Source: a virus
DNA: 22,895 bases
Virus record (IMG/VR): IMGVR_UViG_3300042485_001660
Location: 1 to 22,895 of that record
Strand: one strand, 5' to 3'
Under the pieces are notes generated by a model. That model made no database searches and was not told the origin of the DNA. It was given only the letters and a program-made list of their open reading frames with translations. Each line of letters starts with the position of its first letter. Position 1 is the stretch's first letter. The position numbers and the translations under genes are program-made. Shown here piece by piece: positions 1 through 18,763 of the stretch.

Positions 1-7
1 CTCCTAG
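1..7 (-). promoter_or_regulatory. Shine-Dalgarno of the next gene, off the window
   Basis: Read on the minus strand the last bases are CTAGGAG, a strong ribosome binding site 12 nt beyond the stop codon of the protease/scaffold gene. Its start codon would lie just outside the window. After a portal and a protease-scaffold gene, the usual next gene is the major capsid protein; this identity is inferred from gene order only. Confidence 0.6.
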
Positions 8-19
8 TGATTTTTTACC

Positions 20-1351: not shown

Positions 1352-1360
1352 AACGTTATA

Positions 1361-1369
1361 ATTATAGCA
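1361..1369 (-). promoter_or_regulatory. Extended -10 promoter before the protease gene
   Basis: TGCTATAAT on the minus strand in the 40-nt gap after the portal gene. The ATG lies 9 nt after the box, so transcription would start at or just before the start codon (leaderless or nearly so). A TTGAGA lies 19 nt upstream of the TATAAT and could act as a weak -35. Confidence 0.5.
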
Positions 1370-1391
1370 CCGCTTTAAACAATTTTCTCAA

Positions 1392-2996: not shown

Positions 2997-3390
2997 CCAT
3001 AGCACCTCTTCCATGTTTTTCTAATGTCTGTTGTGCTGCATGCCAAGCACCTAAGTCGTTCATTGAAGGAATTAAGCCTTCTTTTAATCTTGCCTTTTGT
3101 TCCGAATATTCCTCTTCACTAACCTGAGTTAGCCCTGGAACAAATACTGCCTTACCAAGTCCATCATCTCCATGATGTATTGCAACCTTTTTTAACTCTG
3201 CAATTTTTGTAATATCTCCACGGTCAGACGGTATATTTAAAACTGAGCCTTCTTCGTCTGTAAACCATTTACCAGCAGATGTCTTATATACGTAAAGACC
3301 CCAGTCATAGTGCTTATCTATTACCTGACGACGTACATTTTTAACATAAGGCTTACCAGTTTTTGGATTAATTAATGATTCCATAACCAT
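2989..3390 (-). CDS. Hypothetical protein upstream of the portal
   Basis: A 133-aa hydrophilic protein with no family I can name. It begins with a short basic stretch (NPKTGKPYVKNVRRQV), has an aromatic patch (HYDWGLYVYK near 27-36) and ends in a charged helix-like region. There is no signal peptide or membrane segment. Its last 8 nt overlap the portal start, which suggests a head-related role, but that is from position only. No Shine-Dalgarno precedes it. A TGATATACT box sits immediately upstream, 7 nt before the third codon, which is also ATG, so a leaderless 131-aa form starting at 3384 is possible. It is far too small to be a terminase large subunit. Confidence 0.7.
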   Translation of the reverse strand: MVMESLINPKTGKPYVKNVRRQVIDKHYDWGLYVYKTSAGKWFTDEEGSVLNIPSDRGDITKIAELKKVAIHHGDDGLGKAVFVPGLTQVSEEEYSEQKARLKEGLIPSMNDLGAWHAAQQTLEKHGRGAMDE

Positions 3391-3391
3391 A

Positions 3392-3400
3392 AGTATATCA
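3392..3400 (-). promoter_or_regulatory. Possible extended -10 before the 133-aa gene
   Basis: TGATATACT on the minus strand between the large LamG protein and the 133-aa gene. It matches the TGNTATAAT boxes elsewhere at all but one position and would place +1 close to Met3 of the 133-aa gene. This is weaker than the other boxes. Confidence 0.3.
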
Positions 3401-3402
3401 GA

Positions 3403-6400: not shown

Positions 6401-6867
6401 GGAATTTCAAAAGTTTCAGAAATAAAACCCCATTTTTGATAAGGCACACTGGTAAAAGTTTTTAGATTTTGAACTATAGTTGATGTGGCTGGATTTGTAT
6501 ATTCATACCCTATTGATATATTTTGTGAAAATATACTATTTGAATAAAAATATGAGCCAATGGTAAATGTTCCAAGATCTGCAAGAGTATTAAAATTAAG
6601 TATGTTAGGACTAATAATTGATGCTTCAATTGTTTCTGATACTGGAACACTAACTCTAACCCTATTTAAATGGCTATCTGGGAATGGCTCTTTTAGATTT
6701 TCAAAAGATGTTGCAAGAGTGGCGTTTGTTGGTGTCCATAAAGTTGTAAGATTACGTTGTGCTTCAGAAATTAAACTTACATAATCAAGTTTATCATCTA
6801 ATGCCCACAAAACTAATGGATGTTCGGCATAAATTTTTTCTGCATATAGATTTGACGGGTTAGACAT
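3403..6867 (-). CDS. Large virion-type protein with CBM-like and LamG-like domains
   Basis: This 1154-aa protein looks like a structural or adhesion protein of the virion. Residues about 85-195 resemble a carbohydrate-binding jelly roll. Residues about 270-410 form a LamG/concanavalin-like fold (GQYNDYTIEFWARL, LIHIRLIKDSASLLVNGEEV, DWLGFFAS). A second LamG-like fold lies near 935-1085 (KISAIQLWLRYDQ, GIAFYLNGILV, WSSIGISFLTALVFDSYLGN). It is Asn/Ser/Tyr-rich, with no signal peptide and few Cys. Such folds bind polysaccharide or decorate tails. AGGAGA precedes the ATG and a TGCTATAAT box lies 18 nt upstream of it, so it probably has its own promoter. It sits between the ribonucleotide reductase and the portal-side genes. 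Exact placement in the virion is unknown. Confidence 0.7.
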   Translation of the reverse strand: MSNPSNLYAEKIYAEHPLVLWALDDKLDYVSLISEAQRNLTTLWTPTNATLATSFENLKEPFPDSHLNRVRVSVPVSETIEASIISPNILNFNTLADLGTFTIGSYFYSNSIFSQNISIGYEYTNPATSTIVQNLKTFTSVPYQKWGFISETFEIPNVSAQLRLVIKIEIFEGSSTSADNEFYFNGITLGQWNEEFNTYSLNGTTQTTIPPTVSIYGGYDAVEAQAYGVAEDSGYYITEGGLKCKNAGIPLVFGASGVTRLEPNTDASLIIPGKGFLNKKGQYNDYTIEFWARLAVNTSTPFKIFGPIASDDGLYVEDGFLTLVIGDQFASHFVGEWFRPMLIHIRLIKDSASLLVNGEEVLSLSLNTANLTLPEELDNSGDSQDWLGFFASQNVYPFEIDCVAIYSYQVPVTVAKRRWVYGQGVASSEGISSSYGGTTAFIDYPFANYTANYNYPDFANWNQGSFDNLLTTQTTLRTPEYALPEIFLGTKTLQELYDDNKDVQDNESGPVITDKFLSFRPNNTWSSVESYINFSRFNLLSSEVESCYGVFSSHNLASDELLFKIYNPLNNNYFTILKDGNLIKYSLTYNGTTELLFTSSAITSNSLFAVGFNIKTLSEKFGNNVSSFFGNQSSLKMYVAGDDSGDYTFTGRLYSIGLSTTLNSTKITAYIDTNGFIELDKGQQLIDHTASYTILPSEAYEKYFLDIGVAGYWQDYLPLSYFAQFVKNSNGQQFYEIDFLQFNLGYPTTTTLQQESGALSYYYNTDGAQIKSYATFQYVADGANIPTSFANEEPPDEYKVLDLNNYENWETTRFEILDNTLIYPIKNVDFNKIAIVYSLEFNSRGVLTKPILLNKLQLASQAFNDNSFNPVGTRFGVDLFPYKKNGIYFDYKSKNPFSIYKESTPYLYLTKTSGIEVRGELSVLENRGLSLPINKELATTYKISAIQLWLRYDQENFPATATEIFEVNHKGGTLKFYIQANSQDLNRGKIFVLTEGGIPYDGIAFYLNGILVREPVLSLKEWSSIGISFLTALVFDSYLGNINITGPATFNNISYYQGSSLQEIENKTERPWFKVLSDGTSVLNWQFWLNTSTWGGMLILSSSDFYGINPANIYKTYMGTNKIIIDDEEGLIYQAEKIKVYANAEWSTTVSTPV

Positions 6868-6884
6868 TTTTCTCCTATACCCTT

Positions 6885-6893
6885 ATTATAGCA
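6885..6893 (-). promoter_or_regulatory. Extended -10 promoter before the LamG protein
   Basis: TGCTATAAT on the minus strand in the 35-nt gap after the ribonucleotide reductase stop. Transcription would begin about 10 nt before the ATG, leaving room for the AGGAGA ribosome site. There is no good -35 at 16-18 nt. Confidence 0.55.
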
Positions 6894-6902
6894 GGATGAA
6901 GG

Positions 6903-8933
6903 CTAGTATAGTTTGATTTCGCAAGCGTCTGTTGAACAGTATTTTTCAGACTCTGCGTCAAGATTATTCTTGCCATCATAAATAGCAGACCAATCAATTT
7001 TACCAATTTTACCAACATAAGAATTATATTCTTCTCTTGTAATATTTGTATATGGTTGTTGAGGATAAGTTTTATTACCCATAGGTAGAAATGAAACTGC
7101 CTTTAATTGACCCTCATACATGTGTAATGCTGGAGCAATATGCTTAGTTTCAGATTCCTTGTCAAATGATAGGGTTACAGATACTCCATTATCAGACCAA
7201 TACTTTTGAGCGGTAGCAGCCAAACCAATTTTTTCAAAAAGACTTACATCTTTCTCAGAACGAGAATGTCCAGATGCTACTGGGAAATAGACTACTGAAG
7301 TGTTTGCTGATACTACATCATCTTCAATTTTATACCCTGCCGCTTTAAATAGATGCACCATTGGATCTGTATTGCCAAACCTTATAGCACGAAGATAGAA
7401 TTCTCCTCCTGGACCCCAATGAACTCCTGGTGTTGCACCAGATAATAATGAAACAGATCCTGAAGGTTTGACGGTAGTTACACGAATTGACTCTCTTACA
7501 CATAGCCATTCTGAATAACTATGATCATATGAACGAATCTTTTGATACCCCTCGTCCATCCACTCACGAACTGCTGGCATACCCTTCGTATCTGCAAAAG
7601 ATGCAATACCAGTAAGAGATGTTCCAATACGACGATTACGTTGCATAATTCCATTTGTGGTTTGCCAATGTGTTGGCATTAGTGTTACGGTTTTGCCATA
7701 TAGATATGCAAATTTTAATGTACGAAGAAAGTCTTCTTTATCTTCGTGACGATTTAGGTGAACTTCTACAAGAGTGCAAAGTTCGTAAGATTCTAGTGGT
7801 TGTTCTGCACAAGGATTAAATCCCATTACACGAGAATCTTTATAATCTGGAGCATCTGCTAATCTTCCATAATCTCTAGCAACTCCTAGCCAAATAAATC
7901 CTGGTTCACCATTATCTGCAATTAAATTAACATAGTCTTCGTATTTTGTTCCAACCTCTGCAGAAATAGAGTTATTACTCATCCATGCCCAGCCAGGGTT
8001 TTTAGAATCAAAAGAGTTACGATCTGGAAAAATTTCTGCATTTTTTAAATTAATAAAATCTTTATCTTCAGCATTACCTAAAGCAAGCGTAGCAGAACGA
8101 CGAACATTTCCAGAAACAACACATGTACCAATAAGGTTTACAATATCTACTATGGCACGAGAATCAAGAGTTTCTCCTGCTCTACCCCCAATTACTGTGT
8201 TTATCTTATTGTGTAGTGCAATAAGTGGTGCTGGACCGCTAGCAACCCCTCCAAAGCCTTTTATAGGGGCACCTAGAGGACGGATAAGATCATAGTTAAA
8301 CTTCTGTATAGCCTGATTAGGTCTTAAATAAGAATTTAACAGCATTCTAACTGAGTCAACCCATCCCTCACGAGTGTCTGGTATATTCCATACATTTTCT
8401 GGTTCTGTAGGGGTACAAATAATAATTTCTTTATCTTTGCCAACCGTATCAAAACCAACACCTATACCTAACATTAAAGCATCCATAACCCAAGCAAACA
8501 ATGCTCCAGGATCATTACGGTCAATGTCTCTTGTTGACACCATTGCACAATTTTGTAGAGAAGCAGAATTTTTCTTTTCCATAGTCATTGGTGTGCCGAA
8601 TGCCCATAAACCTCTGCCTGGTGGTGTCCACTTTAAGTTAAACATACGATCATAGGCTTCTTGTGCAGATTTTTGAGCCTTATTATCATTCCATGGTAAA
8701 CGATTATCTTTAGCATGATTCTTTTGAACTGAATACATTCCTTCAATTACCCGCTTACAAACTTCATGCCATCTTTCTTTTGTTCCGTCTTCCTTCATTC
8801 TTGAATAAGTGCGTATAAAGGTAATTTCACCCAATGAGTTAGATCCTGCATCACTAAAACCAAATGGTGGTAGAATTTCAATATATTTATTTACAAACTC
8901 ATCCGATAAACGAAAAGAAAAGACTTCTGACAT
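6903..8933 (-). CDS. nrdJ: Class II (adenosylcobalamin) ribonucleoside-triphosphate reductase
   Basis: This 676-aa enzyme reduces ribonucleotides to deoxyribonucleotides with adenosylcobalamin, feeding phage DNA synthesis, and needs no oxygen and no second subunit. The Lactobacillus leichmannii-type residues are all present with the right spacing: Cys129 in QNCAMVS, the active-site set Asn373, Cys375, Glu377 and Cys386 in FNPCAEQPLESYELC, and the C-terminal redox pair Cys666 and Cys671 in CSTDACEIKLY. The length is somewhat short of the roughly 740 aa of the Lactobacillus monomeric enzyme but the ends are intact. An AAAGG site lies before the ATG. It has its own leader with a TGTTATAAT box and an inverted repeat. 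Use of B12 implies a host that makes or imports cobalamin. Confidence 0.95.
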   Translation of the reverse strand: MSEVFSFRLSDEFVNKYIEILPPFGFSDAGSNSLGEITFIRTYSRMKEDGTKERWHEVCKRVIEGMYSVQKNHAKDNRLPWNDNKAQKSAQEAYDRMFNLKWTPPGRGLWAFGTPMTMEKKNSASLQNCAMVSTRDIDRNDPGALFAWVMDALMLGIGVGFDTVGKDKEIIICTPTEPENVWNIPDTREGWVDSVRMLLNSYLRPNQAIQKFNYDLIRPLGAPIKGFGGVASGPAPLIALHNKINTVIGGRAGETLDSRAIVDIVNLIGTCVVSGNVRRSATLALGNAEDKDFINLKNAEIFPDRNSFDSKNPGWAWMSNNSISAEVGTKYEDYVNLIADNGEPGFIWLGVARDYGRLADAPDYKDSRVMGFNPCAEQPLESYELCTLVEVHLNRHEDKEDFLRTLKFAYLYGKTVTLMPTHWQTTNGIMQRNRRIGTSLTGIASFADTKGMPAVREWMDEGYQKIRSYDHSYSEWLCVRESIRVTTVKPSGSVSLLSGATPGVHWGPGGEFYLRAIRFGNTDPMVHLFKAAGYKIEDDVVSANTSVVYFPVASGHSRSEKDVSLFEKIGLAATAQKYWSDNGVSVTLSFDKESETKHIAPALHMYEGQLKAVSFLPMGNKTYPQQPYTNITREEYNSYVGKIGKIDWSAIYDGKNNLDAESEKYCSTDACEIKLY

Positions 8934-9092: not shown

Positions 9093-9647
9093 TTAATAAA
9101 TTAAATAATTTTTTATATCTGGCCCATTTGGATTATTTGGATAAAATAAGTTTTTAGGAGGGGTTCCGTCTATAAATTTATTATCCGACTTTCTTAAAAA
9201 TGTAATCTCTAATACCTGCGGAACAACTAATCCAGCGACATTAACAGTTTTTGAATAGTTGTTTGGATGCAATGCAACAATTTGATGAGTCTTATTTATT
9301 TTTTCAATAACGTCAATTCTAAAATCTGGAATTTTTACTCCTTCAATTTCTACCATCCAATGTACCTCTAATATTATTTGTTTAAATTTATTAATATTTT
9401 CTTCAGATATGTTTTCAAAAAATTTCCACTCTGATCCCTCAATGTCAACTTTTAAAATTAAATCTTCTTTATCTTTAACACGATCAAGAATAATGTCATG
9501 ATCTGAGTCAACTTTTTCTATAAAAAATCTAGAATTTTTAATTTCTTGTGGTAAAGAATTTATGCTAAAATCATATAAATCCATCCCAGAAACAAAATTA
9601 GACATTTGCTGCTCAAAGTGTATATTGTTTGCAATTCCAAATGACAC
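9093..9647 (-). CDS. FkbM-family methyltransferase (start codon problem)
   Basis: This is a SAM-dependent methyltransferase of the FkbM/Methyltransf_21 type, which O-methylates sugars or similar acceptors. The core signature is LILKVDIEGSEWKFF followed by FKQIILEVHW, and the end VPQVLEITFLRK is typical of the subfamily. The only canonical start, GTG at 9647, cuts into the domain: the in-frame codons just upstream encode RLGSKYDGGYVV, which belongs to the conserved N terminus. The open frame continues to the TAA of the preceding glycosyltransferase with no ATG, GTG or TTG. The true protein is probably longer, from a rare ATT/ATA start, by readthrough, or the start has been lost. It is the last gene of the accessory operon. 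Confidence is high for the family and low for the start. Confidence 0.82.
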   Translation of the reverse strand: MSFGIANNIHFEQQMSNFVSGMDLYDFSINSLPQEIKNSRFFIEKVDSDHDIILDRVKDKEDLILKVDIEGSEWKFFENISEENINKFKQIILEVHWMVEIEGVKIPDFRIDVIEKINKTHQIVALHPNNYSKTVNVAGLVVPQVLEITFLRKSDNKFIDGTPPKNLFYPNNPNGPDIKNYLIY

Positions 9648-9806
9648 TAAATAATCTGTATTTAAAAAATTGTTTACTACTACATATCCACCATCATACT
9701 TACTACCTAATCTAATAAAAGATAGATTTTCTGGAATTTTTATATCTAGTATGTTAATTATTTCATTTTGTATTTTATTAATTTTATGTCTCTTTTCTAT
9801 TATAAA
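9648..9806 (-). other. In-frame N-terminal extension of the FkbM gene without a normal start
   Basis: Fifty-three sense codons link the glycosyltransferase stop (9809-9807) to the GTG at 9647 in one frame. They encode conserved FkbM sequence (IPENLSFIRLGSKYDGGYVV). Candidate non-canonical starts are ATT at 9782, six nt after an AAGAGA, and ATA at 9803 or 9800. Confidence 0.6.
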
Positions 9807-9814
9807 TTATAACA
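9806..9814 (-). promoter_or_regulatory. Extended -10 overlapping the glycosyltransferase stop
   Basis: TGTTATAAT on the minus strand lies across the ATG-TTA-TAA end of the glycosyltransferase gene. A second TATAAT follows at 9804-9799. It could drive a short transcript for the FkbM gene. Confidence 0.35.
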
Positions 9815-10514
9815 TGATCTTAAGTTTATTTGAGTTTAAAGATATATTGATATCAGAAATGTCATGGCAAACTTTTTCAGTAAAAAAATGAATGCCAAAC
9901 CACTTAACTCCAGTTCCTATTTTTACACCATAATATTCTTTGTTGTCTGCTGGACTTGTATAATTAAATATATGAGATTCTGTAAAAAGTTGATAATCTT
10001 TTTCATCTTTTGATTCAATAATTTTAAATAAATCGTTTGTTGGAATATAGTAATACTCTCTTTTCCCTGAATTCATTTTTTCTAACTGCTCTGTTGATGT
10101 AAAATACATTTTTTTTAATGCTTCATATATTATTTGATTTTCTTTTTTTGCAAAAAGAAATCCTTGAAATATTGTTCCTCTGATTATTAAAGAAATGCAA
10201 GAAATAAAATCTTTGTTTGTTTCTAAAAGATACTTATCTATATTTTTATATATTATCATATCTGAATCAATAAATAATCCACCATTAATATATAAATAAA
10301 AATATCTAAAAAAATCTGCTCTATGTGCCCCAGTTTTTAGGGACATAAAGACTTGTTCTGAGTTTGGAAACTCTAAAATTTTATTATTCTTTATATACTC
10401 AAGGCATTGCTTGTCATTAAAATGTTTATAGTCCCATTGAGTAAATGACTTCATTAGCATGTCTACGTCTTTACGTATAGGATCATTTTTTGACGTTTGA
10501 AATATTGTTGGCAT
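9807..10514 (-). CDS. Glycosyltransferase, GT32/DXD-sugar type
   Basis: This 235-aa enzyme transfers a sugar from a nucleotide sugar to an unknown acceptor. It has the family core: an N-terminal IFQTSKNDP, the AHRADFFRYFYLYINGG helix-turn near residues 63-79, then FIDSDMI with the metal-binding Asp83 and Asp85. No membrane segment is seen, so it probably acts in the cytoplasm. The ATG at 10514 is chosen: it begins 4 nt after the stop of the dehydrogenase gene, with GGAT 8 nt upstream, and gives the usual family N terminus; an in-frame TTG 12 nt upstream is the alternative. Its stop is directly followed, in frame, by the FkbM gene. Confidence 0.85.
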   Translation of the reverse strand: MPTIFQTSKNDPIRKDVDMLMKSFTQWDYKHFNDKQCLEYIKNNKILEFPNSEQVFMSLKTGAHRADFFRYFYLYINGGLFIDSDMIIYKNIDKYLLETNKDFISCISLIIRGTIFQGFLFAKKENQIIYEALKKMYFTSTEQLEKMNSGKREYYYIPTNDLFKIIESKDEKDYQLFTESHIFNYTSPADNKEYYGVKIGTGVKWFGIHFFTEKVCHDISDINISLNSNKLKIML

Positions 10515-10518
10515 AGTT

Positions 10519-11187
10519 TTATCCAAATTTACTACTATTTATATGGCACATCTCTATCTGGTTTATATTTAAATGTTTAGGCAAAGATCCAACCCAGTAA
10601 ATTGCTTGGGCTAAATCATCTGCAGATAAGGCATGCTCTCTTTTTTGTTCTTGAGTATCAATAGTAGCAGGACAAATTTCAGTTATTTTTATATTGTATT
10701 CGGGAAACTCTAGCCTCATTGTATCTATTAAACCTCTTTCACCACGTTTGGCGTTAGTATAGTTTCCCCCACCACGGTATGGAATTTTACCACCAAAAGA
10801 TGTTATAAAAATAATAGTTGGGGATTCTGATTTTTTCATACATGGAACAAACAACTGAGATAGATACATTGGTCCAGTTACATTTATGTCGTAGGCTTTT
10901 CTAAAATTTTCTGTAGTTTCATTAATTATTCTTGTAGGACTAGATCCACCACCAGCATTATTTACTAAAAGATCAAGAGTTATGTCTTTATATTTTTCAA
11001 AAAAAACTTTTATTGCTTTAGAGTCTGTAATGTCTAATTGATATGTTTCAATATTCTCAGAAACTAATTCTGCAATTTTTGATAAATTTCTAGAAATTGC
11101 AATAACTCTATATCCATTTTCAGATAAGAGTTTAACAGTTGCATAACCAACGCCTTTGCTGGCACCAGTTACTATTGCTGTTTTCAA
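10519..11187 (-). CDS. Short-chain dehydrogenase/reductase
   Basis: This 222-aa classical SDR is an NAD(P)-dependent oxidoreductase, probably acting on a sugar or a hydroxylated product. It has the Rossmann motif TGASKGVG at 7-14, LDITD at 51-55, NNAG at 76-79, Asn102, Ser130, and the catalytic Tyr143 and Lys147 (YTNAK). It is slightly shorter than the typical 250 aa and lacks much of the C-terminal substrate loop. The start is TTG, 2 nt after the stop of the upstream dioxygenase and without a good Shine-Dalgarno, so translation probably depends on coupling. No later start is possible because the nucleotide-binding strand begins at residue 2. Confidence 0.88.
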   Translation of the reverse strand: MKTAIVTGASKGVGYATVKLLSENGYRVIAISRNLSKIAELVSENIETYQLDITDSKAIKVFFEKYKDITLDLLVNNAGGGSSPTRIINETTENFRKAYDINVTGPMYLSQLFVPCMKKSESPTIIFITSFGGKIPYRGGGNYTNAKRGERGLIDTMRLEFPEYNIKITEICPATIDTQEQKREHALSADDLAQAIYWVGSLPKHLNINQIEMCHINSSKFG

Positions 11188-11189
11188 AA

Positions 11190-11819
11190 TTAGTGTATCC
11201 AGTGTTGCGGAACCATAATCTTTTCACCGCTTTTTACTAAGTGTGCTGTGTGATGATAAGGTGGTGATGGAGGGAACACAATAATGCTCCCTGCTTTTGG
11301 TTTAATGGCAAAAGTATAACCACCTTCTTTTTCTGCTTCTGCAAAATCTGGTTTGGGACTAGCATTTTGTAAAATACCGTCTGGCGATGCAATAGTAAAA
11401 GATAACTCTCCTCCTTCATAATTATCATTTAAATACATAACAAAAGAAACTTTTAATCTATCATCTCCTTCTTGTTGATCAAAGTGTGCCCCCATATATG
11501 TTCCAGCCTGATATTTTTTAATAGGATACATAGGAAATAGTTTTGGCTCTTCAGTTATACCTTGCGATTTAGCATAATCTCTTGCTACATCATCAAAAGC
11601 CTTTTGTAAAGTGTTATAAATATATTTATTTTCCTCATCAGCATTTGCTGTTAACTTAATTGTTTTATCTGTGCCATAGACATATGCTTGTCCACTACAG
11701 GCCATCCACTCTCCCCAAGGGTTAGTATTATCAGTTTCAATTGCTCTTACAAGTTTGTCTGGGTCTTTAATTACATCTGTGTAATAATAAACTTTTTCTT
11801 CAAGTATTTCTTTATTCAT
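11190..11819 (-). CDS. 2OG-Fe(II) dioxygenase F (prolyl-4-hydroxylase-like)
   Basis: This 209-aa protein is a 2-oxoglutarate and Fe(II)-dependent oxygenase of the prolyl-4-hydroxylase-like (2OG-FeII_Oxy_3) type. The jelly-roll core runs from about 98 to 207: iron ligands His112 and Asp114 (AHFDQQ), MYLNDNYEGGELSF at 128-141, PKAGSIIVFPPS, distal His190 and Lys200, which fits the 2OG-binding basic position. A 20-residue insert (about 146-165) after the GGEL strand sets it apart from its neighbours. GGGAGAT precedes the ATG, 11 nt after the stop of dioxygenase E. The substrate is unknown; hydroxylation of a sugar, a lipid or a peptide are all possible. Confidence 0.85.
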   Translation of the reverse strand: MNKEILEEKVYYYTDVIKDPDKLVRAIETDNTNPWGEWMACSGQAYVYGTDKTIKLTANADEENKYIYNTLQKAFDDVARDYAKSQGITEEPKLFPMYPIKKYQAGTYMGAHFDQQEGDDRLKVSFVMYLNDNYEGGELSFTIASPDGILQNASPKPDFAEAEKEGGYTFAIKPKAGSIIVFPPSPPYHHTAHLVKSGEKIMVPQHWIH

Positions 11820-11830
11820 TTTATATCTCC

Positions 11831-12490
11831 CTAGTATTTGTTATTTTCATAAAAATTTTTTACTGTCACAAAACCAACAATGACTTGTCTTATTGGTCCT
11901 GGTCCAACATGTTTTACTCCATGCTCGTGTTGTGGATTTCCTGGAAAAACAAGCAAAGACCCTGGTTTTGGTTTTAACTTAATGTCAAAGTTTTTAAAAA
12001 AAAGTTCTCCATCAGAATAGTCATCATTTATATACAAAATTGTGGCGTATCTAACAGAAGGATCTGTGTCTTGATCTACATGAGATTTTAATTCAACTCC
12101 TTCTTGCATTCTTTGAAGAGTACTCATCCCGCCCAATTGTAATGTATTGTCTGCTTTATCTACAAGTTTTTGTATTCTTTTTTGCAATATTTTAGTTATA
12201 GGGTATTGGTTTATGTTAAGAATTTTATCATCCCAGCCCTTAGTTACTTCGTACTTTCCTTCAGCAACCATTTTTTCAACATCTGATGAGCCAAACTTTA
12301 ACAAACAAAATTCAGCCAAACTCTCTTGATATGCTACAGACCACTCTTCTTCTTTTGTTGTATTGATAATTTCTAAAATTGTATCTAATTCTTCCTTAGA
12401 TGTAAAATTTTCTATTAATATAATATCGTCTGTTATGTTTATAACATTAAAACCATCTTCTATAAATTCTTTTTTTAAAAAACTACTCAT
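11831..12490 (-). CDS. 2OG-Fe(II) dioxygenase E
   Basis: A 219-aa prolyl-4-hydroxylase-like oxygenase. Iron ligands are His137 and Asp139 (KSHVDQD) and His190 (HEHGV), with Arg201 as the likely 2-oxoglutarate anchor. The family strand YINDDYSDGELFF is at 153-165 and PKPGSLLVFPGNP follows at 174-186. The N-terminal half (1-100) is helical and only weakly like the other five, so its substrate pocket probably differs. It overlaps the end of dioxygenase D by 8 nt and has GAGGAG before its ATG. Confidence 0.85.
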   Translation of the reverse strand: MSSFLKKEFIEDGFNVINITDDIILIENFTSKEELDTILEIINTTKEEEWSVAYQESLAEFCLLKFGSSDVEKMVAEGKYEVTKGWDDKILNINQYPITKILQKRIQKLVDKADNTLQLGGMSTLQRMQEGVELKSHVDQDTDPSVRYATILYINDDYSDGELFFKNFDIKLKPKPGSLLVFPGNPQHEHGVKHVGPGPIRQVIVGFVTVKNFYENNKY

Positions 12491-13241
12491 TGTTTTTTAA
12501 CTCCTCTATTTTATACTTATTTCCATCTTTATCTATTTTATATCCTTCTTTTAATAAATTTTGCCATTCTGATCTTTCAATTTCTTGATTTGCTCTTGTT
12601 TCTTTCATTTCTTTTGCCCAAGCATCTCTTACTTCTTGTGGATAGGCATTTTCTTCTCTATCATCCCAGAATGAACCTATAGTGTATCTTATCCCACTTG
12701 TTATAAGAGATACCTCGTGCATATTGTTAAATCCCCCATCAAAAACAGCAAGCATACCTGTTTGCGGAACTATAGATATATCTTGATCTGGGAACTGTAA
12801 AACTCCACCCTCAAAATCTCTATTTAAATATAAAAATGCAGCATACCTACTTCTTGTAAATGCTCCAGAGTTTCCATGCTCGTCTGTATTATCTGAGTGT
12901 TTTCTAGCATAGGCTCCTGGCTCCCACTTTTGCGTGTGATATCCAATTTTAACTATAGTAGATGGATCAAGATCATGAACTGTTGCAACTGCAGTAGAAA
13001 TTGTTTTTTCAATATCAGAAAAAATAGTTGGGGTAAGTCCTAGATTAATTACCTCTTCATCATTATCTAATGGCAGAACAGAAGAGTAAGACTCATAAAA
13101 AGATATTGGCATCCACGAAATGTTTCCGCTTTCTGCATGCTTATCTAAAACTTGTACAATTTTTGCAGAGGTTTCTTCACTTAAAAAATTTTCATAAATA
13201 ACAATATCTTTTGTTATTCTTTTTTTATTATTTAAGTTCAT
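12483..13241 (-). CDS. 2OG-Fe(II) dioxygenase D
   Basis: A 252-aa prolyl-4-hydroxylase-like oxygenase with iron ligands His115 and Asp117 (RKHSDNTD), His175 (NMHEV) and Arg185 (SGIRYT). The strand RYAAFLYLNRDFEGGVLQF lies at 132-150. A charged C-terminal extension of about 55 residues (198-252) is not seen in the others. The start at 13241 is used because its ATG overlaps the TGA of dioxygenase C as ATGA and has AGGAGA upstream; a longer frame from 13289 would overlap gene C by 52 nt and has no support. Confidence 0.85.
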   Translation of the reverse strand: MNLNNKKRITKDIVIYENFLSEETSAKIVQVLDKHAESGNISWMPISFYESYSSVLPLDNDEEVINLGLTPTIFSDIEKTISTAVATVHDLDPSTIVKIGYHTQKWEPGAYARKHSDNTDEHGNSGAFTRSRYAAFLYLNRDFEGGVLQFPDQDISIVPQTGMLAVFDGGFNNMHEVSLITSGIRYTIGSFWDDREENAYPQEVRDAWAKEMKETRANQEIERSEWQNLLKEGYKIDKDGNKYKIEELKNNE

Positions 13242-13909
13242 GGCTGGCGCTCTCCTGTGTGTTTTGTTATTTCCCAAAAGAACGGACATGTAAACCTTGT
13301 CCCACTTTTAATTTCAGTAACCCCGTGTATATAATTTTTATCTCCTGGGAAAAAATATGCAGCACCTTTTTTAGGTTTAAACTGAACTCCTTGTAATGGA
13401 AAGTAAAGTTCTCCACCTTCATAATCGTCATTTAAATAAAATAAACTTGAAAGATCATAGTTTGGAAAATCATTTGGCAGTCCAGCGTCTGGACCTTCGT
13501 GTAATTCTTTGTCTGCATGTGGTCTCTGAAATTGTCCTGGAAGCCATTTAACAATAGTTGTTCCAGTTGGAGTAACCTCTACGTTGTAAAATTCTTCAAT
13601 AATTGGTTTCAATCTTTCAAATAGTCCTGCAATTATTGGAGATATTGATGGATTATTTTTATCTAATGTTGGTTGAGTAGCAACTCTATCTTTCCAGTAG
13701 TTTGAGTCATATACCACTGTTCCATTTTCATTAACATGACTTTCTGTTACATCCCAAATTGTTAAAGATTTTGCAGCACTTTCTAAAAAATTCATTTCTT
13801 CTTGAGTCATAAAATTTTCTAACTCAACAATCATTTCTTTACTATTTCCAAACCACCCAGATGGAGTTATTGAGGGCTTTCTAATTACAACATTGTTTAT
13901 GGTATTCAT
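13238..13909 (-). CDS. 2OG-Fe(II) dioxygenase C
   Basis: A 223-aa prolyl-4-hydroxylase-like oxygenase. Iron ligands are His131 and Asp133 (RPHADKE) and His195 (YIHGV), with Arg205 in SGTRFT. The strand LFYLNDDYEGGELYFP at 156-171 is typical of phage members. It carries an acidic, Gly/Pro/Asp loop (about 136-152) between the HxD motif and the next strand. No Shine-Dalgarno precedes the ATG; instead TGATATAAT ends 6 nt before it, within the last codons of the preceding gene, so a leaderless transcript is likely. This may start a second transcript inside the accessory operon. Confidence 0.85.
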   Translation of the reverse strand: MNTINNVVIRKPSITPSGWFGNSKEMIVELENFMTQEEMNFLESAAKSLTIWDVTESHVNENGTVVYDSNYWKDRVATQPTLDKNNPSISPIIAGLFERLKPIIEEFYNVEVTPTGTTIVKWLPGQFQRPHADKELHEGPDAGLPNDFPNYDLSSLFYLNDDYEGGELYFPLQGVQFKPKKGAAYFFPGDKNYIHGVTEIKSGTRFTCPFFWEITKHTGERQP

Positions 13910-13911
13910 AT

Positions 13912-14628
13912 TTAAATTATATCACTTATGTTATTTTTAACGGAAAGTTTTAATATTTTTACTTCGTGTGATCCTAGAGACTCTCCTTTTTCATTTACTG
14001 CATCCCTATACCAATCGGTCCAACCACCTGATTGATTTATTTTTTGCGCTTCTTGACCATAAGACATTTCTGCTTTTTTTCTTTTATCATCTTCATCTTT
14101 ATATTCATTTATTTGAATAGAAGAGTTATTTAGATTACTTAAAGAAATTGGAATAATTGTTGCTAATGGAGTTCCTGCTTTTATAGACACATTTTTATTT
14201 GCAGATCGTGCTTTAATTGCTAAAGGAAGTGGATTATCAAGAAATGAAGTGCTTATTAACGAAGACATTGTTTCAAAATCATCATTAAAATAATTAACTG
14301 GATTAATACAAAAAAGGCTAACATTATTTTCTGTTTTAAAAATTAGTCCAGTATTAAAACTTATACTTGATTGACCTCTTCCAGTATAACAAATATCTTG
14401 TGCGTTTAAAAGTTCTATATTATTTCCAGTTTGATCATTAATTCCATTCCAGATAAAATTTATATCATCTAAACAAGATATATTCCAACCAATCATATTT
14501 GCTTGAGTTACTGGAAAACACCTATAAGCATGTTTTTCTGAAGTTTGATCCATCCAATCTCTTTTTATGGACATTGGCTCAATTTTCATTCTTGAGTTAT
14601 CCATTTGCTCAACAGAAAGATTAAACAT
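13912..14628 (-). CDS. DUF6065-like protein (second copy of module)
   Basis: A 238-aa protein that I place in the DUF6065 group by recall of its pattern: RDWMD near 24-28, AYRCFPVTQANMIGWNIS, then FIWNGI, RGQSSISFNTGLIF, NPVNYFNDDFETMSS and IKAGTPLATIIPISL. The function is not known. Its ATG overlaps the TAA of dioxygenase B (TAATG), so the two are translationally coupled and probably work together. The last 60 residues are charged and lie outside the conserved core. It resembles the protein at 15295-16083 distantly, in the same relation to a dioxygenase. Confidence 0.7.
   Translation of the reverse strand: MFNLSVEQMDNSRMKIEPMSIKRDWMDQTSEKHAYRCFPVTQANMIGWNISCLDDINFIWNGINDQTGNNIELLNAQDICYTGRGQSSISFNTGLIFKTENNVSLFCINPVNYFNDDFETMSSLISTSFLDNPLPLAIKARSANKNVSIKAGTPLATIIPISLSNLNNSSIQINEYKDEDDKRKKAEMSYGQEAQKINQSGGWTDWYRDAVNEKGESLGSHEVKILKLSVKNNISDII
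13916..13924 (-). promoter_or_regulatory. Extended -10 promoter before dioxygenase C
   Basis: TGATATAAT on the minus strand, overlapping the last codons and stop of the DUF6065-like gene. Six nt separate it from the ATG of dioxygenase C, which has no ribosome site. Confidence 0.5.
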
Positions 14629-15284
14629 TAGTCATTTTCTTCAGAATACATTTCTGGAGTATGAAATTTTTTACTATAATCTAACATTGTAACAATAGAA
14701 TATTTTGTTCCAGAATGAACAGGCATTGCTCTATGTGGATACATAAAGTTTGATGGAAATATAAATAAATCTCCAGCCTCTGGCTTAACTTTTAAATCTT
14801 GTAGTCTAAAGTATAGTTCTCCGCCATCATAGTCATCATTAACATATGCAACAAGTGATACAGTACAGTTATAAGAAAATCCATGATCATGATGTTCTTG
14901 AAAGTGTTGTCCTGGACCATATTTAATAAAATTAAATGCTTCCCAGTATTTTAATTTATGAATATTATATTGCCTACAATAATCTTCTACTGCTGGATTT
15001 TGAGCATCATATACGTCTTGCCATAATGCCTGAAGATTTAAAGAGGTTTGACTTGTATCATTTTCAATATCAGTTTTTTTAAATTTAAAATCATTACAAT
15101 CTCTGTAGTTTGGCATCAACTGTTTATAACCTACATATGCTGGTAACCAACTATATCCAGTCTCATCACCAACTGGTTTAAGATTAGATTCAAGCCTGTT
15201 AATAACATCAATTTCTTTTTTAATTACCCCTTTGTAGCATACTATACCATTTCCAAGATCAATTTTTTCTGTCCAAGTTTGCAT
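14628..15284 (-). CDS. 2OG-Fe(II) dioxygenase B
   Basis: A 218-aa prolyl-4-hydroxylase-like oxygenase and the closest relative of dioxygenase A. Iron ligands are His131 and Asp133 (EHHDHG) and His184 (YPHRA), with Lys194 in SGTKYS. The shared blocks are WEAFNFIKYGPGQHF, HGFSYNCTVSLVAYVNDDY and GGELYFRL. The start at 15284 is chosen because AAGGGG, overlapping the upstream stop, sits 6 nt before it; an in-frame ATG at 15344 would overlap the previous gene by 50 nt. It is coupled to the DUF6065-like gene downstream by a TAATG overlap. Confidence 0.87.
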   Translation of the reverse strand: MQTWTEKIDLGNGIVCYKGVIKKEIDVINRLESNLKPVGDETGYSWLPAYVGYKQLMPNYRDCNDFKFKKTDIENDTSQTSLNLQALWQDVYDAQNPAVEDYCRQYNIHKLKYWEAFNFIKYGPGQHFQEHHDHGFSYNCTVSLVAYVNDDYDGGELYFRLQDLKVKPEAGDLFIFPSNFMYPHRAMPVHSGTKYSIVTMLDYSKKFHTPEMYSEEND

Positions 15285-15294
15285 TTTTAACCCC

Positions 15295-16083
15295 TTAGTT
15301 ATACTCTCTTTTAGACCATATTTTATTTTTATAAATACCGCCATCTGGCTTACGGTAAAAGTTTGCGTTATCTATTAGTTTATCATACATTTGTCTTTGG
15401 TCTAAATTTTCTATTTTTTGTTCCCAATTTTCTCTTTTAAAAGGAAGAATTTGTAGGTATGGAGTTCCTGCTGGTAAAGTTCCTTCCCAGCCTTCTGCAA
15501 TAAAAAATGGAAAGGTTCCAAGTACATGAACCTTATCAGAATCAACTATACCAGTTGTATTTAAAAACGGTAAATCAAATCTATTCATTGGTGTCATAAA
15601 CAATGCACTGTACCCATCTGGAAGTTCTACACCCCAATCTGAATACCAGGCAAAATGATCTTTATAGAATCCTTTTGGATGTTCAAATTGTGACATAGCA
15701 AGTCTTTGTCCACAAAAATCTTTATATTTTAAATCAGAAACTTCAACATCAATTATTCCTTTTTTATTTTTAAAAAATATAAGATCGCATGGTGTTTTTA
15801 AAACATATCCCGTAGAAAATGCATCTAAAATTGCTGGACACGCTTTCCATGTTGGAATTTTACCGTAGTCGTTTGTAGTTCCTTCTTTTGGAAAAGGACA
15901 AATTTCTTTTGGTGCTTGATAATATTCGCCATTTGGCATTTTAGCAAATCTATCTGCATCTTTATACCATTCTGGAATTACTTTTTGTGTTGGAGAAGGA
16001 GCAGAAAAACTTTTATCATTTAACCATGGCCTATAAGGTTTAAATGTAATTATGTTTTTAATTGTATCAAAAGTTTTACTCAA
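15295..16083 (-). CDS. DUF6065-like protein (first copy of module)
   Basis: A 262-aa protein of unknown function. It has PSPTQKVIPEWYKDADRF near 29-46, a Cys in TWKACPAILDAFSTGY, an aromatic centre (HFAWYSDWGVELPDGYSAL) and a late block PAGTPYLQILPFKRENW. The order Cys-Pro, GY, P-D-L-I-F, P-M-N-R-F and A-G-T-P with I-L-P matches the DUF6065-like protein downstream, so I see them as distant homologues. The start is TTG, one nt after the stop of dioxygenase A, with a weak AGGA upstream; no other start lies before the conserved region. Confidence 0.72.
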   Translation of the reverse strand: MSKTFDTIKNIITFKPYRPWLNDKSFSAPSPTQKVIPEWYKDADRFAKMPNGEYYQAPKEICPFPKEGTTNDYGKIPTWKACPAILDAFSTGYVLKTPCDLIFFKNKKGIIDVEVSDLKYKDFCGQRLAMSQFEHPKGFYKDHFAWYSDWGVELPDGYSALFMTPMNRFDLPFLNTTGIVDSDKVHVLGTFPFFIAEGWEGTLPAGTPYLQILPFKRENWEQKIENLDQRQMYDKLIDNANFYRKPDGGIYKNKIWSKREYN

Positions 16084-16084
16084 T

Positions 16085-16813
16085 TTATCTATGTCCTAAT
16101 TCGTTAATATCAGTCATAACCACAACACAATATTTTGTTCCTAATTTCATTGGTAAAGATGCATGTTCATAGATATAATTTGATGGACAAAGCACTATGT
16201 CTCCAACTTTTGGTTTATAAACAAGATTGTCTAACCTTGGAAATTTTAATTCTCCACCCTCATAATCGTCATTTATATATATTACAGCAGACACTGTACA
16301 GTTATATGCTGGTCCATGATCTGCATGAACATTAAAGTGAGAGCCTTCTCCCTCATATTTAACAAAATTAAATGCCTCATAATATATAACATTTATTCCC
16401 CAGTATGCAGCATAGTCGTCTATACAGTATTTTAATTTTTCATATATTTCTTGATGAAGATCTAGAAGTTCTGCATTGTCTTGATCCCTTGGCCCAAGGT
16501 TTTCTTGTTTATATTTAAAATCTACACAATCTCTTGCTTTTTTAATTGGAGTTGCAGAGTTTGTTACTTGGGCCTCTGACCAATTATATTTTTTATCATT
16601 GTTTAAATTTGATTCAAGAGTATTTATATATCTTTTAGAGTCTTGCAATGAAAATACATTTTGATAAACATTAACTCCTAAAGCCAAGTTTTCAACTAAT
16701 ATGCCATTTTTTAATGGTTTAACATTAAGTCTATTACTTGATGTTTCTGACCTATCTTTTGTAAACCAGTGATTTGAATTTTCATCATACTGAATTGTTT
16801 CTTTATCGTTCAT
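16085..16813 (-). CDS. 2OG-Fe(II) dioxygenase A
   Basis: A 242-aa prolyl-4-hydroxylase-like oxygenase. Iron ligands are His163 and Asp165 (VHADHG) and His217 (YEHAS), with Lys227 in LGTKYC. The blocks YYEAFNFVKYEGEGSHF, HGPAYNCTVSAVIYINDDY and GGELKFPRL match dioxygenase B at roughly half the positions. An N-terminal extension of about 30 polar residues is unique to this copy. Its ATG lies inside the end of the glycosyltransferase gene (11-nt overlap) with an AAGAGA nearby. Confidence 0.87.
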   Translation of the reverse strand: MNDKETIQYDENSNHWFTKDRSETSSNRLNVKPLKNGILVENLALGVNVYQNVFSLQDSKRYINTLESNLNNDKKYNWSEAQVTNSATPIKKARDCVDFKYKQENLGPRDQDNAELLDLHQEIYEKLKYCIDDYAAYWGINVIYYEAFNFVKYEGEGSHFNVHADHGPAYNCTVSAVIYINDDYEGGELKFPRLDNLVYKPKVGDIVLCPSNYIYEHASLPMKLGTKYCVVVMTDINELGHR

Positions 16814-17609
16814 TATTTCTCTTTTCTTTATTTTGGTTTAATCTTTTTGGTATATATTTTTTAGTTAAATATCCAATTAGAGTATTTTCTTTTGGAATAG
16901 AATTAATCTTTGGAACTCTTAGGCCGTGTCTTAACCAAGAAGAATTAAATAAAGATAAAGCAACACTGTTGGCTATTAAACTTTTTGTTTTTTCATAAAG
17001 CATTGGATTTATAAAATCAGAACTATGAGAGTACCTTATGGGATGAAAAACACTTTCTTCTTTAACAAAATCTATTAAATTATTTTTTTTAATTATTTTT
17101 GTTAATAAATCTGGGCCATATGTAATTTGATCTTTGCTAGAAGCAGTGGGCATAAAAACAAAATTTTCAATTATTTCATCTATAATTTTATGGTTACTTA
17201 TATATAAAATATCATTGTTAACCCTTATTGGTTTTTTTGCTGGTTCTGGAAGATCTATAAAAAATCCAAAAAGATATGGTTCTGGGTCTGGCCAAGTATC
17301 TGTTAAACAAACCATGTCTGAGTCAGTCCATATAAGGTTTGTCTTTTTTAACATGTGCAGTCTAAATAAATCAGCAAATTGTTGATGCCCTCCACCACAA
17401 AGAATATCGTCAAATTTTGTTAAAAATATTTCTTTTTCCAGCATAATTTCATTTGCATCTTTTTTGATTGCTCCATCAGGAACTTTAATAGACATATCAT
17501 ATAAATATATATTTAGTTCATGTCCATGATAAATATATGAGTTCCAGGAAATTTCTTGTAACAAGGTTGGTTCATTTCCAAACCATAAAGTACCAAACTT
17601 TAGCCCCAT
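16803..17609 (-). CDS. Glycosyltransferase with DXD motif, first gene of the accessory operon
   Basis: A 268-aa sugar transferase of the GT32/Gb3-synthase-like kind. It starts with KFGTLWFGNEPTLLQEISWNSYIYHGHELNIYLYD, a nucleotide-sugar-binding Rossmann-like start, has FADLFRLHML at 78-87, and the metal-binding WTDSDM with Asp96 and Asp98. The C terminus is very basic (KKYIPKRLNQNKEKRNNER). No membrane helix is seen. AAGGAT precedes the ATG and a TGTTATAAT box lies 28 nt upstream of it, which makes this the likely first gene of a 12-gene operon. The acceptor is unknown. It resembles the second glycosyltransferase only at the DXD region. Confidence 0.83.
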   Translation of the reverse strand: MGLKFGTLWFGNEPTLLQEISWNSYIYHGHELNIYLYDMSIKVPDGAIKKDANEIMLEKEIFLTKFDDILCGGGHQQFADLFRLHMLKKTNLIWTDSDMVCLTDTWPDPEPYLFGFFIDLPEPAKKPIRVNNDILYISNHKIIDEIIENFVFMPTASSKDQITYGPDLLTKIIKKNNLIDFVKEESVFHPIRYSHSSDFINPMLYEKTKSLIANSVALSLFNSSWLRHGLRVPKINSIPKENTLIGYLTKKYIPKRLNQNKEKRNNER

Positions 17610-17683: not shown

Positions 17684-17965
17684 TTATTTATTTTTTAATA
17701 TTTTTACTTCATTTTCTAAATCTTTTATTTTTTCTGATAAAAGTTTTAAAACCTCTATAGAATAAACAGAAAGAAGGTCATATCTAAGGCCTAACGGTTT
17801 ATTTTCTTTGTCTAGCACAACTATATACTGAAGAGAGTCTATTTTATTAACTTCTTCTGCTATATACCCAATTTGCCTAATTTCTCTAAGATCATTATTG
17901 TATATCCATGTTACTGGCTTTAAGCCTTTTATGGCTTTTTCAAAATCAATTTCTATTGGAACCAT
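17684..17965 (-). CDS. S74-type intramolecular chaperone fragment, encoded separately
   Basis: A 93-aa protein matching the body of the Peptidase_S74 (tail-fibre intramolecular chaperone) domain: KPVTWIYNN near 17-25, the central QIGYIAEEVNKID near 31-43, GLRYDLLSVYSIEVLK near 58-73 and a C-terminal coiled coil to the end. In the usual protein this domain is at the C terminus of a fibre, helps it trimerise and then cuts itself off. Here the first strand of the domain (SSERFKYSI) is at the end of the upstream gene in the same frame, and two stop codons lie between. A GGGGGG lies 9 nt before the ATG, so the piece is translated alone. It may act in trans, or be the remnant of a broken fusion. 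Confidence 0.75.
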   Translation of the reverse strand: MVPIEIDFEKAIKGLKPVTWIYNNDLREIRQIGYIAEEVNKIDSLQYIVVLDKENKPLGLRYDLLSVYSIEVLKLLSEKIKDLENEVKILKNK

Positions 17966-17989
17966 ATTACTTATCCCCCCGTTTTATTT

Positions 17990-18763
17990 TTACTTTATAC
18001 TAACAACCCTTATTATACTATACTTAAATCTTTCAGATGAGTATGCGAATCTTGGGAAGAATGGGAAGAATGGTGGGAAGAACGGACCAAATGATGGGAA
18101 GAATGGTGGGAAGAATGGTGGGAAGAATGGGAAAAACGGTGGGAAGAACGGTGGGGTAGTTACGCTAGTTGAAGCACTTGAGGTTGATGAATTACCATTT
18201 GCGTTAGTAGCGTAAACTGTATACGTTTGTGAGGTAAGTGCTTCTTGGGTAACGTTAACGCTTGTTGTTCCTGATCCAACAGTATCACCTTTACCATCTG
18301 ATGATGCCCAAGTGTAACCAGTAATTGCACTTCCACCATCTGCAGGGGCTACCCAAGAGACAGCATCTGAAAGGGCTGAAGTTGTTACGGTTGGTGCAGC
18401 AGGAGTTGCTGGCACTGTTGTTGCTGTAATAGAACTAGATGCACTAGAAGCATCAGAAGTTCCAACTGCGTTTGTTGCTGTTACTGTAAATGTATAGGCG
18501 GTATTAGATTGTAAACCTTCTACAGTTAATGGTGAAGATGCGCCAGATGCTGTATAACTACCAGGGGTTGAAGTAACTGTAAATGATGTAATTGGTGCAC
18601 CATTACTTCCACCAGATGAGAATGAAACACTTGCTGCGCCATTATTAAATGCACGAGATGTACCAACATTTGTTGCAGAAGCACTTACAGGTGCATTAGG
18701 CTTTCCCGCACCCTGAAAACCTAAACCTCTTACACCTGCTCCTCGTCCACCAATAATGGGCAT
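17990..18763 (-). CDS. Fibronectin type III virion protein with Phe/Pro tract
   Basis: A 257-aa tail or fibre protein. After a Gly-rich start there are two fibronectin-III-like domains, about 22-116 (SNGAPITSFTVTSTPG, NTAYTFTVTATNAVG) and 119-203 (DAVSWVAPADGGSAITGYTW). Residues 204-237 are almost only Phe and Pro in FFP and FFPP units. The end (about 241-250, YSSERFKYSI) is the start of an S74 chaperone domain, including Ser242 and Lys247 spaced five apart as in the Ser-Lys pair known for the family. AAGGGG overlaps the stop of the upstream gene and serves as ribosome site. Phage fibronectin domains are thought to bind sugars or host surfaces. Confidence 0.82.
   Translation of the reverse strand: MPIIGGRGAGVRGLGFQGAGKPNAPVSASATNVGTSRAFNNGAASVSFSSGGSNGAPITSFTVTSTPGSYTASGASSPLTVEGLQSNTAYTFTVTATNAVGTSDASSASSSITATTVPATPAAPTVTTSALSDAVSWVAPADGGSAITGYTWASSDGKGDTVGSGTTSVNVTQEALTSQTYTVYATNANGNSSTSSASTSVTTPPFFPPFFPFFPPFFPPFFPSFGPFFPPFFPFFPRFAYSSERFKYSIIRVVSIK
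18053..18154 (-). repeat. Phe/Pro tract coded by GGGAAGAAY-type repeats
   Basis: About eleven short in-frame units, 9 or 12 nt long, encode the FFP/FFPP tract. On the plus strand they appear as runs of GGG spaced by about 6-9 nt. Copy number is likely to vary by slippage or recombination. Confidence 0.7.

Follow-up and report, generated by a model that had tools for sequence, protein, structure and literature searches.

A conserved oxygenase operon adjoining a proline/phenylalanine-rich tail-fibre repeat in tailed phages is predicted to hydroxylate that repeat

An operon encoding six 2-oxoglutarate- and Fe(II)-dependent (2OG-Fe(II)) oxygenases was investigated in a 22.9 kb virus record from IMG/VR (IMGVR_UViG_3300042485_001660), the whole of which is referred to here as the window. 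The operon adjoins a gene for an FN3 fibre protein ending in a Pro/Phe repeat, and repeats of this type, in two sequence classes, co-occur near-exclusively with the oxygenase cassette in three samples that were drawn separately. The operon is probably a tail-fibre maturation cassette, predicted to hydroxylate the Pro/Phe-rich fibre repeat. On the minus strand, tail-fibre genes (709, 150 and 417 aa) are followed by the FN3 protein gene, a small S74 protein gene, and then GT1-OX1-DUFa-OX2-DUFb-OX3-OX4-OX5-OX6-SDR-GT2-FkbM-like, in which OX denotes an oxygenase, GT a glycosyltransferase, SDR a short-chain dehydrogenase and DUFa and DUFb two DUF6065-type proteins; a class II ribonucleotide reductase (RNR), a tail protein, a portal and a protease lie 3′ of the block on the same strand. 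A preliminary description of the window had listed twelve genes, six oxygenases among them, as one tightly coupled operon, and this holds: all twelve open reading frames (ORFs) were found where it had placed them, and the intergenic junctions from GT1 through GT2 span only -52 to +11 nt.

The cassette is conserved as a block in viral metagenomes. A scan of IMG/VR with DUFa returned 368 relatives, and in the best 80 loci, which were compared for gene order, the same order recurs at the same site, with the FN3 fibre gene on one side and the RNR gene on the other. Thirty-four of these loci were complete, spanning both flanking genes; the order OX1-DUFa-OX2-DUFb-OX3-OX4-OX5-OX6 is exact in 27 of them, while seven differ by an additional copy or an absent member. 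The oxygenases are present in 33-34 of the 34 complete loci. Since random viral contigs (n = 40) carry at most one PF13640 oxygenase each, a block of six is far beyond chance. The original proposal for the cassette was a pathway in which the oxygenases, SDR, glycosyltransferases and methyltransferase together make a glycan, hydroxylated and methylated, on the surface of the host or on the virion, and GT1, GT2, SDR and the FkbM-like gene do share the operon in the window. Among the complete loci, however, GT1 occurs in 4/34, GT2 in 1/34 and the FkbM-like gene in 1/34; the conservation of glycosyltransferases with their neighbours that would mark a surface-glycan locus is thus missing from the complete loci. 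The glycosyl- and methyl-transfer genes are optional whereas the oxygenases are constrained, and on this ground a glycan pathway was rejected as the core function. The closest solved structures are moreover peptidyl hydroxylases, and a glycan pathway does not predict a tie to the Pro/Phe repeat, leaving this explanation with a low probability. What survives of the original proposal is a multi-step modification of the virion, still the best reading; the glycan as its substrate does not, since the transferases are optional and the oxygenases track the fibre repeat.

The C-terminal repeat of the FN3 fibre protein is of the PPFFPPFFPFF type in the window, and FN3 homologues directly upstream of the cassette have a long C-terminal PFFP stretch of the type PPFFPPFFPFFPPFF. 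In a set of 141 distinct repeat regions, the prolines are separated by FF (2017), YF (149), HF (51) or SF (19) and fall almost exclusively in runs of one or two. Repeat codons differ at synonymous positions, indicating that the peptide itself is conserved. Sister phages have a second class, FF[ASG]PP[GSA], within the same FN3 gene, and in either class F almost always fills the second aromatic position.

Co-occurrence was assessed first from the side of the repeat, in 40 long records from IMG/VR contigs pulled solely by a DNA pattern encoding PFFPPFFP. PF13640 oxygenases were found in 39/40 (median ∼6.5, mostly 5-12 copies, maximum 12), compared with 2/40, one copy each, in a control of 40 contigs pulled with an unrelated 14-mer and unmatched to the repeat sample in habitat (Fisher 6e-19). 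Only 22/40 of the repeat-bearing records have a DUFa homologue and only 22/40 a portal of the window type, no portal homologue being found in the other 18/40, so the tie between repeat and oxygenases is not mere inheritance within a single lineage. The portal comparison had two additional rows, both of them reference phages. A longer pattern gave 14 matches in GTDB contigs, four of them real fibre-like repeats; three of the four lie near oxygenases, and the fourth runs to the contig end and shares a bin with one of these three. Repeat and oxygenase loci with tail-fibre homologues were observed in GTDB metagenome-assembled genome contigs from Verrucomicrobiales, Gammaproteobacteria and Chitinophagaceae bins (L326, L329, L334, L335), and these are probably phage contigs binned with, or integrated in, those hosts.

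In a second sample, 32 portal relatives were gathered regardless of repeat or cassette. Eleven records carry five to seven oxygenases, and the remaining 21 carry at most one; the PFFP pattern marks seven records, all within the oxygenase-rich 11. Four records with five or six oxygenases and no PFFPPFFP (G089, G096, G097, G102) were considered as exceptions and dismissed, since an FFxPPx repeat is present in the same FN3 gene. Counting either repeat class, the repeat is found in 11/11 oxygenase-rich records versus 0/21 of the other portal relatives, or 11/11 versus 0/14 when contigs with little sequence upstream of the portal are dropped (Fisher 2e-7). The FFxPPx class was sought after those four exceptions had been seen, and a third sample, a new IMG/VR set drawn by the pattern FFxPPxFFxPPxFF, served as an independent check; oxygenases were found in 34/34 of its records (median 6). 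Where the contig leaves room, 46/54 PFFP ORFs and 45/50 FFxPPx ORFs are followed on their own strand by an oxygenase at most 4 kb away. At least four changes of state map onto the portal tree, with only two contrasts on well-supported branches. In many freshwater phages, five to seven enzymes of collagen type, resembling prolyl hydroxylases, directly adjoin the repeat fibre; because the enzyme set and the fibre are found together almost without exception, modification of the fibre is favoured over the building of a sugar. Fibre loci are exchanged as modules, and fibre and oxygenases could instead travel together as a host-range module whose enzymes have a protein or surface polymer of the host as their target, in the manner of the Pseudomonas putida prolyl hydroxylase PPHD on EF-Tu; that enzyme bound to EF-Tu (4iw3) is a close structural match to the OX2 model (Z 19.2). 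However, portal relatives without the cassette are also without both repeat classes, so the tie is to the repeat itself, and the two different repeat sequences share PP and FF elements. A host-range module is accordingly judged unlikely.

All six oxygenases score above the curated cut-off for PF13640 (2OG-FeII_Oxy_3; 35.7-57 bits versus 27), and each has the HxD motif, the distal His and the Arg/Lys anchor. Truncated rows aside, every one of the 117, 148, 146, 94, 72 and 74 orthologues of OX1 to OX6, respectively, keeps the ligands for iron and 2OG, so all six are strongly constrained as enzymes, in keeping with the preliminary description, to which all six had looked active and which had named loss of iron ligands in homologues and failure of the genes to co-occur elsewhere as findings that would speak against it; instead the ligands are invariant and the block recurs. 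Its count of six different dioxygenases is right as to six intact PF13640 enzymes but overlooks that OX1 and OX2 are a paralogous pair (40% identity), the remaining pairs sharing 23-34% over aligned stretches. Against solved structures, a joint profile of the six matched human P3H1 (prolyl 3-hydroxylase 1; 2.4e-11) and bacterial prolyl 4-hydroxylase (P4H; 3e-10), as well as the P4H of Paramecium bursaria chlorella virus 1 (PBCV-1), PHD2 and the lysyl hydroxylase LH3. Individual profiles of OX2 and its relatives, OX3 and OX4 likewise led to P3H1 and P4H, and that of OX5 did so weakly. The OX2 model (predicted local distance difference test score (pLDDT) 90.5) aligns over residues 23-229 with the algal P4H solved with (Ser-Pro)5 (3gze; Z 20.1, root-mean-square deviation 2.1, 173 aligned) and also with Trichoplax PHD bound to a HIF peptide (Z 19.9). 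By profile and model, then, the closest solved relatives, and the fold over most of the chain, appear to be those of prolyl hydroxylases (P4H/P3H/PHD), OX6 alone excepted. DNA hypermodification, in which TET/JBP-like oxygenases, dUTPase-like DUF6065 proteins and glycosyltransferases would modify phage bases, could draw on the dUTPase-type fold of DUF6065, a halovirus homologue beside thymidylate synthase, and a weak match of OX3 to the Tet_JBP profile (5.8e-5; 22.8 bits, below the cut-off of 34.9); no oxygenase exceeded that cut-off, and the other five had no match. Tet-like structures nevertheless score far below prolyl hydroxylases (1.5e-3 versus 2.4e-11 with the six-OX profile; 1.6e-5 versus 6e-15 with the OX2-family profile), the window showed neither a DNA methyltransferase gene nor one for base modification, and the fibre repeat would be left unexplained. 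On the strength of the structural comparison this very improbable explanation was set aside.

From the conserved gene order, the intact active sites, the fold of the OX2 model, and the adjacency and co-occurrence of fibre and enzymes, we infer a substrate, a target residue, an order of reactions and a role for DUF6065. The phage would make an FN3 fibre with a C-terminal periodic (P)P-[F/Y/H]-F sequence, or FF-[A/S/G]-PP-[G/S/A] in sister phages, and OX1 to OX5 with the related OX6 would hydroxylate side chains in the repeat, with Fe(II), 2-oxoglutarate and O2, before the virion is assembled or during its assembly. Candidate substrate peptides are FFPPFFPP or FFAPPGFFSPPG. The target is most likely proline (giving 4- or 3-hydroxyproline), with aromatic residues possibly modified too. 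Because the PP and FF units offer several distinct positions, five to seven enzymes could be accommodated, different ones probably reading different registers: the first or second Pro of PP, a single P, or the residue beside F. DUF6065, of dUTPase-type beta-clip fold and adjoining OX2, may be a substrate-binding or assembly partner, and that it holds or aligns the repeat is speculation; SDR and glycosyltransferases, found in some phages only, may oxidise or glycosylate the new hydroxyls as optional finishing steps. The repeat might also be the substrate with phenylalanine (or Tyr/His) rather than proline as the hydroxylated residue. The near-invariant F at the second aromatic position in both repeat classes would fit this, as would a number of enzymes exceeding the apparent need for proline alone; the closest solved relatives act on Pro or Lys, though, and the chance of a phenylalanine target is rated as small. 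The fullest version of fibre maturation, that freshwater tailed phages build a hydroxylated, extensin-like FF/PP fibre with five to seven hydroxylases acting at several registers and dUTPase-fold proteins as adaptors, is given about an even chance.

Several points weigh against hydroxylation of the repeat. The 2OG fold by itself does not reveal a substrate, OX2 alone among the oxygenases was modelled, and the family profile of OX6 gave no match in the PDB. One repeat-bearing record of the 40, a 36.8 kb fragment (G032), has zero oxygenases, and some phages that lack the repeat carry a single oxygenase. The records are fragments, the control is unmatched in habitat as said, and the independent contrasts number 2-4, all concordant and too few for significance. 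Cultured phages in INPHARED gave no match to DUFb or to the FN3-repeat protein, for which the FN3 part alone was tested since the BLAST low-complexity filter hides the repeat. DUF6065 also occurs apart from the oxygenases, to which it is therefore not bound strictly: a 53.5 kb record (L442, record G093) has at least three DUF6065 genes and a fourth fragment near tail-fibre genes but contains no 2OG oxygenase.

Table 1. Positions of the cassette and the adjoining fibre genes in the window, with supporting matches (complete loci as defined in the text).
Feature	Position (strand)	Description
FN3 fibre protein, 257 aa	17990..18763 (-)	PF00041 fn3 1.2e-11; proposed substrate; ends in Pro/Phe repeat
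PPFFPPFFPFFPPFFPPFFPSFGPFFPPFFPFFPRF repeat	18047..18154 (-)	FN3 protein residues ~204-239; read from translation
Stand-alone C-terminal part of S74 (endosialidase-chaperone-like) domain	17684..17965 (-)	PF13884 1.1e-5; optional neighbour, 4/34 complete loci
GT1	16803..17609 (-)	Weakly alpha-1,4-glycosyltransferase-like; PF04572 just at cut-off, 22.3 bits; optional accessory, 4/34 complete loci
OX1	16085..16813 (-)	2OG-Fe(II) oxygenase; H163, D165, H217, K227; PF13640 2e-10; ligands kept in 117 orthologues
DUFa	15295..16083 (-)	DUF6065-like; dUTPase-type beta-clip fold; phrog_7084 4.4e-36
OX2	14628..15344 (-)	2OG-Fe(II) oxygenase; H151, D153, H204, K214; PF13640 3.9e-15; model Z 20.1 to algal P4H
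DUFb	13912..14628 (-)	DUF6065; PF19541 1.6e-31
OX3	13238..13909 (-)	2OG-Fe(II) oxygenase; H131, D133, H195, R205; PF13640 2.9e-9; family profile P3H1 1.4e-8, bacterial P4H 7e-7
OX4	12483..13289 (-)	2OG-Fe(II) oxygenase; H131, D133, H191, R201; PF13640 1.8e-8; family profile P3H1 1.9e-7
OX5	11831..12490 (-)	2OG-Fe(II) oxygenase; H137, D139, H190, R201; PF13640 1.1e-9; family profile P3H1 8.6e-4
OX6	11190..11819 (-)	2OG-Fe(II) oxygenase; H112, D114, H190, K200; most divergent; PF13640 3.3e-11
SDR	10519..11187 (-)	Short-chain dehydrogenase; PF00106 4.8e-41; frequent accessory, 21/34 complete loci
GT2	9807..10526 (-)	DXD-type glycosyltransferase; PF04488 DXD sugar-binding domain 3.4e-10; rare accessory, 1/34 complete loci
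FkbM-like methyltransferase	9093..9788 (-)	Weak call; rare accessory, 1/34 complete loci

The gene calls for SDR, DUF6065 and GT2 were supported; GT1 just reaches its family threshold, and the FkbM-like gene falls below cut-offs (PF05050 0.003, 18.1 bits versus 22.7; NCBIfam fkbM 6e-4, 20.2 versus 37.7). Its start had also been misplaced: the frame stays open upstream of the listed GTG, the true start is upstream, and that part has no ATG, GTG or TTG. DUFa had no Pfam match, and neither DUFa nor DUFb matched the Pfam dUTPase profile at E up to 0.01. The DUFa model (pLDDT 94.3) has a predicted dUTPase-type fold (Foldseek probability 1.0, E 4e-4; Z 9.4 to dUTPases over ∼128 residues), the fold search listing dUTPase-type matches and other folds remaining possible. 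The family is predicted to have a dUTPase-type fold, and its DUF6065-like homologues were met in 50 phage records, almost all of them from haloarchaeal viruses; in Halorubrum virus HRTV-2 the homologue gp42 (L082, locus 7848-8720) adjoins the genes for thymidylate synthase and DNA polymerase.

In the window (17684-18763) the S74 domain falls into two parts: SSERFK closes the FN3 protein, and the remainder is encoded separately, by a gene that has an ATG of its own and a G-rich leader. The same split is present in L001, L002, L008, L012 and L052, and a frameshift was ruled out, since in all relatives examined the S74 part starts on its own behind a G-rich leader. Other fibre ends were observed. 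Several of the FFxPPx fibres L430, L432, L433, L444, L445 and L449 run on past the repeat into an apparent Hint/intein-type self-processing domain, and other FN3 fibres end in Cys-rich tails, such as CSCQATYCWQCPCSSNCCC in L044. A portal relative with one or two oxygenases (L434, record G100) has a third kind of repeat, NPGFNPGFNEPPAF, in an adjacent fibre-like protein with a Hint-like C-terminus. Positions 1-8933 of the window hold RNR, P133, portal and protease in the gene order of the Stanwilliamsviridae. The RNR is 60% identical to that of Mycobacterium phage Gaia and the portal 46% to that of Streptomyces phage Yaboi, and this kinship to actinobacteriophages suggests, indirectly, an actinobacterial host for the lineage to which the window belongs.

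Aquatic virome papers list P4H genes repeatedly, as auxiliary metabolic genes (PMC9301287; PMC9611531), and a 2022 aquatic-virus study, noting that PBCV-1 encodes a collagen P4H, stated that the use of viral prolyl 4-hydroxylase 'remains cryptic' (PMC9301287). Evidence for 4-hydroxyproline in viral proteins is the title subject of Eriksson 1999, as cited in PMC9301287, and EGLN3-like oxygenase structures were found in many marine phages in the Phold paper (PMC12774648). Literature searches found no description of the cassette, DUF6065 or the repeat, and none combining prolyl hydroxylase, bacteriophage, tail fiber and hydroxyproline. In the present phages, enzymes and candidate substrate lie side by side and track each other across lineages, and the question is thereby open to direct mass spectrometry. 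If hydroxylation is borne out, the enzymes would serve virion maturation and not metabolism, assembly of the fibre would require O2, iron and 2-oxoglutarate, and synthetic Pro/Phe-rich polymers could be hydroxylated with a newly available set of enzymes; the cassette would be the first system in which several enzymes hydroxylate protein of a bacteriophage virion, and the fibre a new class of repetitive, modified structural protein.

Among known phages, the Stanwilliamsviridae of Streptomyces (Yaboi) share the order RNR, P133 homologue, portal and protease, with portals 46-48% identical, but the Yaboi genome has no PFFP repeat, and no OX or DUF6065 homologue was found in the 41.6 kb examined. 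The lake phage Actinomycetia phage DSL-LC01 (L339, 102-127 kb), with an RNR 60% identical, has collagen-like fibre genes beside a tryptophan halogenase and a glycosyltransferase, possibly another route of fibre modification, and a TauD-type dioxygenase elsewhere. In named records, OX3 finds only ∼28% identity, in cyanophages and marine single-cell viruses. Cyanophage 2OG-Fe(II) oxygenases (phrog_61) belong to the same superfamily; they number one or a few per phage, with no tie to a repeat protein shown, and the Pro/Phe repeat is absent from the one ACG-2014b region and the AG-345-O18 region checked. The labels of phrog_2297, phrog_274 and phrog_3531 (DNA endonuclease, endonuclease V and ferrochelatase), also propagated into cyanophage records, are likely annotation errors, as these families match 2OG oxygenases over the catalytic region.

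The P4H of PBCV-1 (vCPH; 5c5t) is likewise virus-encoded, shares the P4H fold (Z 17.7 with the OX2 model) and is thought to act on repetitive viral proteins. It differs in being one enzyme of a eukaryotic giant virus with collagen-type substrates, whereas five to seven enzymes are found here in a tailed-phage operon beside a non-collagen FF/PP repeat; the adjoining repeat is (P)P[FYH]F or FFxPPx instead of collagen Gly-X-Y, a comparison confined to that repeat within the genome. Bacillus anthracis P4H (3itq, 5hv0) and human P3H1 (8k0e), the best sequence-profile matches of the OX families, are single enzymes acting on collagen-like proteins. The closest fold is that of Chlamydomonas P4H (3gze), one of the algal and plant P4Hs of hydroxyproline-rich glycoproteins, solved with a poly-(Ser-Pro) peptide. 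Substrates of these enzymes are Pro-rich, repetitive and later glycosylated, although the enzymes act in the eukaryotic secretory pathway and on another sequence repeat.

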